Shown here piece after piece: positions 22,785 to 42,193 of a DNA stretch of 44,703 nt (position 1 is its first letter; each line of letters starts with the position of its first letter). Origin of the DNA: a virus. The translations under genes were made by a program, and so were the position numbers. The notes beneath the pieces are model-generated. The model saw only the letters and a list, made by a program, of their open reading frames with translations, ran no database searches and was not told the DNA's origin. The stretch is taken from positions 1-44,703 of the IMG/VR virus record IMGVR_UViG_3300039106_000616, one strand, 5' to 3'.

Positions 22785-23484
22785 AAAACAAATGAACCTC
22801 ATGTTGATAATCAAGTAGGGTTTCTTTATATCCAAGACCTTTGATCCAGTCTCTTACCTCAGATAAATATTCTCCAAATTGATGAAACATAAATTCTGGG
22901 TGACCAGATAGCCAAATCTTTGGCTTATGCTCTCTAAGGACCATTTCAGCCCCTTTAAGAACCATCCATTCGCTACCCTCTACGTCAATAGATATTGCTG
23001 TCGGCGATTCTAGTTTATGAACATAGACAAGGCTATCTATTGTTATCTGTCCGTAATTATCTCCTTCAAGGTACAACTCTTTAAATCCGTGTGCTTTATC
23101 TAAATCTTCATCCGATACTGGTGGAAATCCATTAAGATATATTTCTGCTTTATCATTATTAATATTAGATGCAAATGCTGCTACTGTTGCTATAGGTGGT
23201 TCAAGTTTATTTGCAGACCAGAGTATTGGGTAGTGAGACCAGACCTGTGGGTTTGGCTCAAATAGAACTACCTTTGCACCCCACATCTGACATAGAGCAG
23301 GAAACTCTCCTTCTTCTGCTCCAACATAATAAACAACATCGTCTTTACCAATATTGTTGTGCATAGACTTGGTTCGGATTTTCTCCCAACCTTCTGGTTC
23401 ATACCACTCTTGTCTATCTGCACGATGTTTTGGTAGAACTATTTTAAACTCTCCATTAATAACTACTTCAACCATATCTGTCAT
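22777..23484 (-). CDS. FkbM-family methyltransferase
   Basis: 235 residues with VVYYVGAEEGEFPAL (SAM site), VVLFEPNP and ISIDVEGSEWMVLKGA, the FkbM signature. Likely O-methylates a sugar of the glycan. Overlaps the epimerase gene by 4 nt. Confidence 0.87.
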   Translation of the reverse strand: MTDMVEVVINGEFKIVLPKHRADRQEWYEPEGWEKIRTKSMHNNIGKDDVVYYVGAEEGEFPALCQMWGAKVVLFEPNPQVWSHYPILWSANKLEPPIATVAAFASNINNDKAEIYLNGFPPVSDEDLDKAHGFKELYLEGDNYGQITIDSLVYVHKLESPTAISIDVEGSEWMVLKGAEMVLREHKPKIWLSGHPEFMFHQFGEYLSEVRDWIKGLGYKETLLDYQHEVHLFYE

Positions 23485-39585: not shown

Positions 39586-39594
39586 TGTGGATAA
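39586..39594 (-). other. DnaA box
   Basis: TGTGGATAA, the exact complement of TTATCCACA. One of four perfect boxes between 39.5 and 41.7 kb. Confidence 0.65.
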
Positions 39595-39928: not shown

Positions 39929-40077
39929 TAGTTAGCCTCTCCGCTAGTAAATAAATTTCCAAGAGCAAAGTTATCGCACTCGCATTTTTCGACATTGTAG
40001 TCAAGGTTATCTCCCCAAAAGATTAACCCTGAACCTGAACACTCATCACAAGCAAAAGACATTACAGAGTTTATCAT
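39928..40077 (-). CDS. 49-aa zinc-binding protein
   Basis: Contains CDECSGSG and KCECDN, like one DnaJ-type zinc knuckle pair. Start ATG 40077; MSFACDEC, six codons later, is an alternative. Confidence 0.68.
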   Translation of the reverse strand: MINSVMSFACDECSGSGLIFWGDNLDYNVEKCECDNFALGNLFTSGEAN

Positions 40078-40262
40078 TTAACTAACCCCTTACCTCTAAG
40101 AGTGCCACGAATACCTAGAGCGTCGCAATCTAATTTAACAGATACGCCAACAGGCAACTGGTTTGGATAAGTGTTTATGAATTGAGCAACCGCACCTCTA
40201 GAGGGTAGGTTTATGTTTTTAGTAGCACCATTGTAGGTTTCTAGTCTTACAGTGAAAGTCAT
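40074..40262 (-). CDS. Small basic beta protein
   Basis: 62 residues (MTFTVRLETYNGATKNINLP...). First gene of a three-gene unit; AAAGG upstream. Unknown role. Confidence 0.72.
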   Translation of the reverse strand: MTFTVRLETYNGATKNINLPSRGAVAQFINTYPNQLPVGVSVKLDCDALGIRGTLRGKGLVK

Positions 40263-40295
40263 TTCTGACCACCTTTCTTTATTGTTTGAATTGTA

Positions 40296-40324
40296 ATTCT
40301 ATCAGTTATCGCTGACATTTTCCA
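40296..40324 (-). promoter_or_regulatory. WTGTCAG-class promoter
   Basis: Minus strand TGGAAA (40324-40319), ATGTCAG (40318-40312), 10 bp ending TGA, TAGAAT (40301-40296). Confidence 0.78.
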
Positions 40325-40346
40325 CTTTAGGGGGGGTGTGTTGGGG

Positions 40347-41469: not shown

Positions 41470-41507
41470 TTTAAGACCTACCTTTCTTTTTTTAACTTTA
41501 TAGGATA

Positions 41508-41536
41508 ATCCTAACACCTACCACTGACATTTACTG
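41508..41536 (-). promoter_or_regulatory. WTGTCAG-class promoter
   Basis: Minus strand ATGTCAG (41530-41524), 10 bp, TAGGAT (41513-41508) with extended TGT; the -35 (CAGTAA, 41536-41531) is poor, which suggests the heptamer replaces it. Confidence 0.7.
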
Positions 41537-41569
41537 GTGAGTAACTATGACAAAACGGACATCGTGTCG

Positions 41570-41585
41570 TGTGATGTAGGTCATG
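41570..41585. promoter_or_regulatory. Crp/GlxR-like half palindrome
   Basis: TGTGATGTAGGTCATG: left half perfect, right half degenerate; about 76 bp upstream of the 41469 transcript start. Touches a DnaA box. Confidence 0.5.
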
Positions 41586-41592
41586 TGGATAA
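41584..41592 (-). other. DnaA box
   Basis: TGTGGATAA, perfect complement of TTATCCACA. 42 bp from the next box in the same orientation. Confidence 0.68.
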
Positions 41593-41611
41593 CTTGAGCG
41601 TAAATTTATGA

Positions 41612-41627
41612 TGTGATTTATATCATG
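41612..41627. promoter_or_regulatory. Crp/GlxR-like half palindrome
   Basis: TGTGATTTATATCATG, followed directly by a DnaA box; the same site/box pairing occurs at 41570-41592, so a 42-bp unit is repeated. Confidence 0.5.
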
Positions 41628-41634
41628 TGGATAA
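41626..41634 (-). other. DnaA box
   Basis: TGTGGATAA, perfect. Confidence 0.68.
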
Positions 41635-41688
41635 CTATCTCAGACACGCCCGACTGGGGCGCCCATGTCCGATTTGCACCTTTTGTCT

Positions 41689-41704
41689 TGTGGTATGAAT
41701 CACA
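41689..41704. promoter_or_regulatory. Crp/GlxR-like palindrome, imperfect
   Basis: TGTGGTATGAATCACA, about 64 bp upstream of the predicted start of the rightward transcript. Confidence 0.55.
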
Positions 41705-41725
41705 TGCGACACGCCGTGTTAGGAC

Positions 41726-41754
41726 TTGACTTTTTGACTTATGTGTGTTAGTAT
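41726..41754 (+). promoter_or_regulatory. Rightward promoter
   Basis: TTGACT (41726-41731), 17-bp spacer, TGT-TAGTAT (hexamer 41749-41754). Transcribes the repeat leader and the 42.0-43.2 kb genes. Confidence 0.78.
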
Positions 41755-41779
41755 TACAATACAAGAAAATAAAGAAGCA

Positions 41780-41913
41780 GACTCAATGAGCCTAGCAAAT
41801 AAACCTCAATAAGAGGTTGAGCCTAGCAAATAAGAGAGTCAGAGATTAGATAGCCTCAATGAGCCTACCAAATAAACCTAAAGTATAGGGTGAGCGTAGC
41901 GAATAAGTGAGGC
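41780..41913 (+). repeat. Four-copy repeat leader: twin symmetric RNA or iterons
   Basis: Four copies of GAGCCTAGCAAATAA or a variant start at 41788, 41819, 41861 and 41892 (spacing 31, 42, 31). Each pair lies in the two 18-nt sides of an internal loop closed by outer stems (GACTC/GAGTC, 41780-41840; GCCTC/GAGGC, 41853-41913) and inner stems (ACCTC/GAGGT; ACCTA/TAGGG). Each copy also follows a possible start codon (ATG, TTG, ATG, GTG), giving mini-ORFs beginning xSLANK or variants. It could be a structured leader RNA, a set of iterons beside DnaA boxes, or attenuating mini-ORFs. Confidence 0.65.
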
Positions 41914-41932
41914 AAATCACATTACGACACTA

Positions 41933-41945
41933 GGGGAAAGTCCCC
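41933..41945 (+). other. GC-rich hairpin in leader
   Basis: GGGGA-AAG-TCCCC, directly upstream of a WTGTCAG promoter; no T run follows. Confidence 0.5.
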
Positions 41946-41948
41946 AAA

Positions 41949-41971
41949 TTGTCAGACCCCCCTGATAGAAT
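41949..41971 (+). promoter_or_regulatory. WTGTCAG-class promoter, plus strand
   Basis: TTGTCAG (41949-41955), 10 bp ending TGA, TAGAAT (41966-41971). The -35 position (CCCAAA) is poor. Second promoter for the 42011 operon, closer to the gene. Confidence 0.72.
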
Positions 41972-42010
41972 TACAGGTATAAAGAAAGTCTCTTGAAAGG
42001 AGAACTAAAT

Positions 42011-42193
42011 ATGAATAACAATACACTAGAGTTTGGTGTTAGCCGTGAAGGAAACGGTGCTAAGCAAATGATTGCTGATATTAGAAAGTATCAACAAGAA
42101 CGATACAATCGTGAGGACTTGCCTCTGCTAGAAGCATTAGGACTTGCTAACGCTTATCTATCTGCTCAATACAATGTAGAGGAGAATAACTAA
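42011..42193 (+). CDS. Small conserved phage protein
   Basis: 60 residues (MNNNTLEFGVSREGNGAKQM...). AAAGGAG lies 8 nt before ATG 42011; the in-frame start at 41993 would lie upstream of it. Helical C-terminal half (LPLLEALGLANAYLSAQYN). Unknown function. Confidence 0.75.
   Translation: MNNNTLEFGVSREGNGAKQMIADIRKYQQERYNREDLPLLEALGLANAYLSAQYNVEENN

Follow-up and report, generated by a model that had tools for sequence, protein, structure and literature searches.

A new RNA motif built of repeated internal-loop modules, widespread in uncultured phages

The leader repeat region at positions 41779-41914 of the window, i.e., the whole stretch of 44,703 nucleotides analysed (IMG/VR record IMGVR_UViG_3300039106_000616), encodes, at a probability of about 0.93 as judged from sequence comparison, a cis-acting structured RNA made of a repeated internal-loop module. 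The RNA motif is new and widespread in phages; it is carried by well above one hundred contigs of uncultured phages, and a two-copy pattern with the helix-end positions left free is found in at least 120 IMG/VR stretches. The parts of the region in the window and their surroundings are as follows.

41726-41754, plus strand: promoter TTGACT, 17 nt, TAGTAT, read from the sequence; predicted start about 41761
41755-41778, plus strand: AU-rich unstructured 5' end of the RNA (..ACAAGAAAATAAAGAAG); relatives have a similar one (..AAATTAAATAA..)
41779-41841, plus strand: RNA unit 1, two inverted modules (covariance model R1, pair counts, fold z)
41780-41784/41836-41840: outer stem of unit 1, GACUC/GAGUC
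41787-41791 opposite 41827-41833: first loop of unit 1, UGAGC opposite CAAAUAA
41792-41795/41823-41826: central helix of unit 1, CUAG/CUAG
41796-41802 opposite 41818-41822: second loop of unit 1, CAAAUAA opposite UGAGC
41803-41807/41813-41817: hairpin of unit 1
41852-41914, plus strand: RNA unit 2, two inverted modules (covariance model R1)
41853-41858/41908-41913: outer stem of unit 2, GCCUCA/UGAGGC
41865-41868/41896-41899: central helix of unit 2, CUAC/GUAG
41877-41880/41886-41889: hairpin of unit 2
41950-41971, plus strand: further promoter-like element with an extended -10 (TGTCAGACCCCCCTGATAGAAT), of a different class, after the RNA units and ahead of the gene
42011-42193, plus strand: first gene of the rightward operon, coding for a 60-aa orphan protein

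An earlier note, made from the sequence, had described four repeats spaced 31-42-31 behind a rightward promoter; both are present, the copies lying at 41788, 41819, 41861, and 41892 with 0, 0, 1, and 2 mismatches, respectively. The 63-nt unit recurs at 73 nt, and the two units are 83% identical. The region folds more stably than its dinucleotide shuffles (z of -3.1, and of -3.0 and -2.5 for units 1 and 2 alone). Of the stem, 18x18 loop, and stem proposed in that note, the outer stems stand, but the loop is not open—it is split by the CUAG/CUAG helix in unit 1 and by CUAC/GUAG in unit 2 into two identical internal loops, UGAGC opposite CAAAUAA, in opposite orientation. Covariance model R1 gives 73.8 bits for unit 1 and 74.5 bits for unit 2, scores that are high by construction since both units belong to its training set, so that the independent evidence is that of covariation and distribution. 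A weak R1 match elsewhere in the window (23199-23268, minus strand, 14.7 bits) was taken as chance. The AU-rich 5' end belongs with the promoter rather than the unit, since the L015 promoter, which has no unit, is also followed by one.

The order of parts in a unit is a stem, a UGAGC-CAAAUAA internal loop, a helix of 4-5 bp, the same loop inverted, and a hairpin. In the IMG/VR matches the UGAGC and CAAAUAA strands are constant, while the outer stems and hairpins differ widely in sequence with their pairing kept. When 59 distinct units are aligned, 86.4% of cells are paired, and 184 cells show a double change versus 58.5 +/- 6.4 in shuffles; the covariation score is 0.581 versus 0.130 in shuffled alignments and 0.05-0.15 in slid registers. 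Position 8 of copy 1 covaries with position 5 of copy 2 (G-C, C-G, U-A). In a collection-wide scan that did not require pairing, the compensated CUAC..GUAG was found in 105 IMG/VR stretches and the single-break combinations CUAG..GUAG and CUAC..CUAG in 0 and 0. Further compensated central helices, from a table that took in complementary pairs only, are GUAG/CUAC, AUAG/CUAU, and the 5-bp CUAAG/CUUAG and CUUAG/CUAAG. The symmetric structured leader RNA surmised from the sequence is borne out.

Every form of the motif is assembled from a single internal-loop module, of the order stem A-(R)UGAGC-stem B ... stem B'-CAAAUAA-(R')-stem A', which stands alone, is doubled, is nested, or recurs in tandem. 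Descriptor searches revealed lone modules with a small hairpin (e.g., L042, L097, L151, and L216), inverted pairs as in the window, same-orientation nested pairs, and triples, the number of modules per stem ranging from one to three. The pairs of single modules covary too, a descriptive result since the alignment concerned (A2) was built from matches already paired. Two inverted pairs in tandem are found in the window and in its relatives L032 and L051, one double unit is the rule in most relatives, and a record carries from one to four copies of the unit.

The earlier note recognised no known riboswitch or leader in this region, and in Rfam 15 nothing matches 41480-42020 up to E=10, only tRNAs reaching the gathering score within the window. 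Among 84,980 cellular genomes no match has the paired architecture. A cellular origin was considered and rejected, all 19 genome matches being plain tandem direct repeats devoid of it; those at L122-L140, from Bacteroidota and other genomes, are unrelated repeats (TGAGCGAAGCGAATAA type). With the consensus as query, a Blast search of 50,697 phage records gave 18-nt chance matches only, and a literature search on the 15-mer and related topics yielded no account of the element. Mimicry of ribosomal RNA was also rejected, as an E. coli rrn operon contains no module.

The element follows the direction of transcription. A co-directional gene lies downstream of 192 of the 193 units for which a simple ORF caller found a downstream gene, no module lies within genes in ten genomes fetched nearly whole, and adjacent units are arranged in tandem in 73 pairs, divergently in 49, and convergently in 0, these being counts of non-independent events as many of the contigs are related. 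Of 120 distinct upstream contexts, 80 have a TTGACA/TATAAT-type promoter at proper spacing ahead of the unit, versus 4.0 expected in shuffles. In these promoter-linked copies the unit lies 24-46 nt after the -10, i.e., about 17-39 nt after the predicted sigma-70-type start, whereas its position relative to the start codon varies widely (26-517 nt); many units stop 26-50 nt short of that codon, leaving the ribosome site uncovered. Where promoters lie in tandem, a separate unit stands behind each. Many genomes have a unit on one arm only, and in G017 a 78-kb block carries none and a 16-kb block carries one.

A minority of copies lie between genes or directly after stop codons, with no obvious promoter. 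In one lineage modules are situated between genes 16-20 nt past the stop codon, again with no obvious promoter (L142, L145, L161, and L177). Nested modules in this position are seen at ten loci (L142, L145, L149, L161, L164, L177, L180, L186, L194, and L210), and the gene upstream of them looks like one family. L172, L216, L222, and L229 carry single modules after a stop codon and far from the next gene (up to 500 nt), with GC-rich outer stems of 9-10 bp; such stop-codon-linked single modules may have a 3' role. The first genes downstream of the units code for small orphan proteins, which form dozens of clusters unrelated to one another; homologues of the protein encoded at 42011-42193 also sit behind a unit in L051, L082, and L113. 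Moreover, a homologue of the commonest unit-following gene is present in the window at 40074-40262 (minus strand) with promoter-like sequence and no unit, which indicates that the leader is portable.

Several other elements recur around the promoters. Two perfect DnaA boxes, TTATCCACA, closely precede the leader promoter at 41592 and 41634 (minus strand), these being the two boxes mentioned in the earlier note; further perfect ones are found at 39594 (-) and 40812 (+), and DnaA-box-like GTGGATAA strings occur close to the unit in several relatives (e.g., L097, L188, and L067). A second promoter class, comprising TGTCAG, often a C-rich stretch, and then TGnTAGnAT, recurs across these phages, in many relatives immediately before a gene and with no RNA unit; in the window it is found at 41950-41971, about 40290-40330 (-), and 41480-41540 (-). 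The box conserved in it may serve as a site for a phage-specific activator or as an operator. CRP/GlxR-like palindromes, TGTGR-N6-YCACA, are located in the window at 41689, 40787, 40347, 37550, and 33348, several of them intergenic and near promoters, and similar ones precede promoters in many relatives. A GACACGCC/GGCGTGTC box, also repeated in many relatives, lies upstream of promoters at 41715, 41650, and 40757 (-).

The TerL protein of the window is 54% identical to those of Streptomyces phages and another of its proteins is 54% identical to proteins of Mycobacterium and Streptomyces phages, the best protein matches of two other motif genomes are in actinobacterial phages, and the motif genomes have a G+C content of 34-42%. 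From these data the hosts are probably low-GC freshwater Actinomycetota, the freshwater part of this assignment resting on likeness to known such phages (PMC10202952). The module is absent from DSL-LC01, the closest record found naming an actinobacterial host (stated as Actinomycetia bacterium; 53.6% G+C). No protein family is common to all ten motif genomes compared (the maximum is eight of ten), in a comparison of incomplete records and divergent small proteins which small phage factors could escape. This suggests a host factor as the reader of the RNA, and the RNA is probably read by one.

It is likely that such a factor recognises the module, either while the transcript is being made or afterwards, and increases the expression of the operon that follows. 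The leader RNA with the module lies just behind a phage operon promoter, often on both divergent arms (in the window the two tandem double units head the rightward operon). The folded leader may act, by itself or together with a host elongation factor, on RNA polymerase, which would then pass terminators and Rho, allowing long phage gene runs to be transcribed. As to the route, we tentatively propose, by analogy, processive antitermination, or anti-pausing, like that of the HK022 put RNA, which contacts RNA polymerase and suppresses termination and pausing; the likeness is drawn from the position behind promoters, the occurrence on both divergent arms, the independence of the gene, and the lack of a shared phage protein. 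Intrinsic-terminator-like hairpins inside the rightward structural gene run of the window (6158, +) and at its end (19513, +) count for this route, provided that the genome is circular or permuted, as linking the leader at 41.7 kb to genes at the window start assumes. Counting against it are the few terminator-like sites in these genomes, the units present on a single arm together with the 78-kb block of G017, and the lack of a module in DSL-LC01.

The copies between genes and after stop codons also count against antitermination, and suit at least as well an mRNA stability or translation element, in which the module would protect the 5' end of early mRNA and, intergenically, the flanking messages, either through a bound host RNA-binding protein or by itself blocking RNases. 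Such an element would work for any gene, and the uncovered ribosome site, the long outer stems of the intercistronic and post-stop copies, some of them GC-rich, and the range of one to three modules agree with it. Nevertheless, we regard it as somewhat unlikely, as the promoter-linked copies keep a tight distance to the promoter and a loose one to the gene, each tandem promoter has its own unit, and about 20 unpaired nucleotides precede the unit, an arrangement from which classical 5'-terminal protective stems differ. Because of the stop-codon-linked copies and the few terminator-like sites, put-like antitermination is only narrowly, i.e., slightly, favoured over mRNA stabilisation. The fuller picture, of a modular RNA antiterminator, or another RNA controlling polymerase or mRNA, which acts via the host machinery, has spread among unrelated freshwater actinobacterial phages, and has its strength set by the number of stacked modules, is offered with a little more reserve than the antitermination route itself.

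The combination of strictly conserved loop bases and stems free to vary is one typical of protein sites, and multiple modules would permit cooperative binding, as expected for the site of a phage-encoded repressor or activator of early mRNAs; such a regulator is improbable, as the ten motif genomes, of different phage types, share no protein family and the unit does not overlap the ribosome site. A ligand-sensing riboswitch with one to three aptamer modules would account for the highly conserved internal loops in a leader RNA and for their tandem arrangement, but no alternative terminator or ribosome-site hairpin was noticed, the downstream genes are unrelated orphans, and there is no Rfam relation, which makes it very unlikely. 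The iteron-like origin suggested in the earlier note, or an operator array, could explain the direct repeats and the two DnaA boxes within 200 bp, but such a DNA element is hard to credit, as the changes are compensatory across variable spacers, the orientation follows the genes and is never convergent, and a single double unit is enough in most relatives; direct repeats of constant spacing, independent of the direction of transcription, are not what is seen. Least probable are four translated mini-ORFs encoding SLANK-type leader peptides—ATG, TTG, ATG, and GTG followed by SLANK and its variants can be read literally, but as a by-product of the conserved R-U-GAGC of the RNA, which yields ATG or GTG in most copies, whereas a Shine-Dalgarno sequence precedes only 11 of 260 copies, the lengths are scattered between 5 and 30 codons, 5-bp helices preserve the pairing but put the reading out of frame, coupled helix changes substitute residues of the peptide (P or S for A, V or I for L) and again keep the pairing, and no conserved start, frame, length, or ribosome site is found. 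What homologues keep is therefore the pairing, and not the frame or the repeat spacing.

The motif represents a new RNA family; the phages carrying it probably infect bacteria that are among the most abundant in freshwater, and gene control in these bacteria has hardly been studied. If the RNA is read by a host factor, these bacteria would have an RNA-recognition activity not known so far. To our knowledge, very few phage RNAs acting on transcription without a phage protein have been described, put being the standard example, so that a second, modular put-like RNA, if confirmed as such, would be valuable as a test case and as a portable part for expression.

By eye, the UAA strand of the module faces its GAG strand in a way we take to be like the UAA/GAN internal loop, and the tandem G.A pairs that, we assume, mark a canonical kink-turn are absent from it. 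In phage lambda, nut (boxA-boxB) is a transcript element near early promoters which involves host factors, boxB being a small hairpin bound by the phage N protein. The motif shares with nut the nature of a transcript element near early promoters and differs from it in that no boxA-like sequence was identified and no phage protein is shared by the ten genomes. With the REP/BIME 3' stabilising hairpins it has in common that some copies follow stop codons and have GC-rich stems, but most of its copies are 5' leaders and its conserved part is the internal loops, not the stems. Among actinobacterial phages, SAS and ESAS are repeated elements ahead of different gene families; the 13-bp SAS of cluster K mycobacteriophages, GGGATAGGAGCCC, lies 3-7 bp before start codons in 11-19 copies per genome, and the ESAS inverted repeats have little support for RNA pairing (PMC3203893). 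The motif, in contrast, lies 26-517 nt from the start codon, occurs in one to four copies per record, and shows strong covariation, and so does not conform to SAS. The HK022 put RNA is a structured leader of about 70 nt with no dedicated trans factor, putL being situated just downstream of PL and putR downstream of PR (PMC9378689). Compared with put by its description, the motif has the same leader position behind divergent, presumably early, promoters (80 of 120 contexts; 49 divergent and 0 convergent pairs), and for it, too, no dedicated trans factor was found. The two differ in architecture—put of lambdoid phages consists of two side-by-side stem-loops, whereas the motif stacks one to three identical internal-loop modules per stem; the window has two adjacent stem-loops, but most relatives have a single unit.
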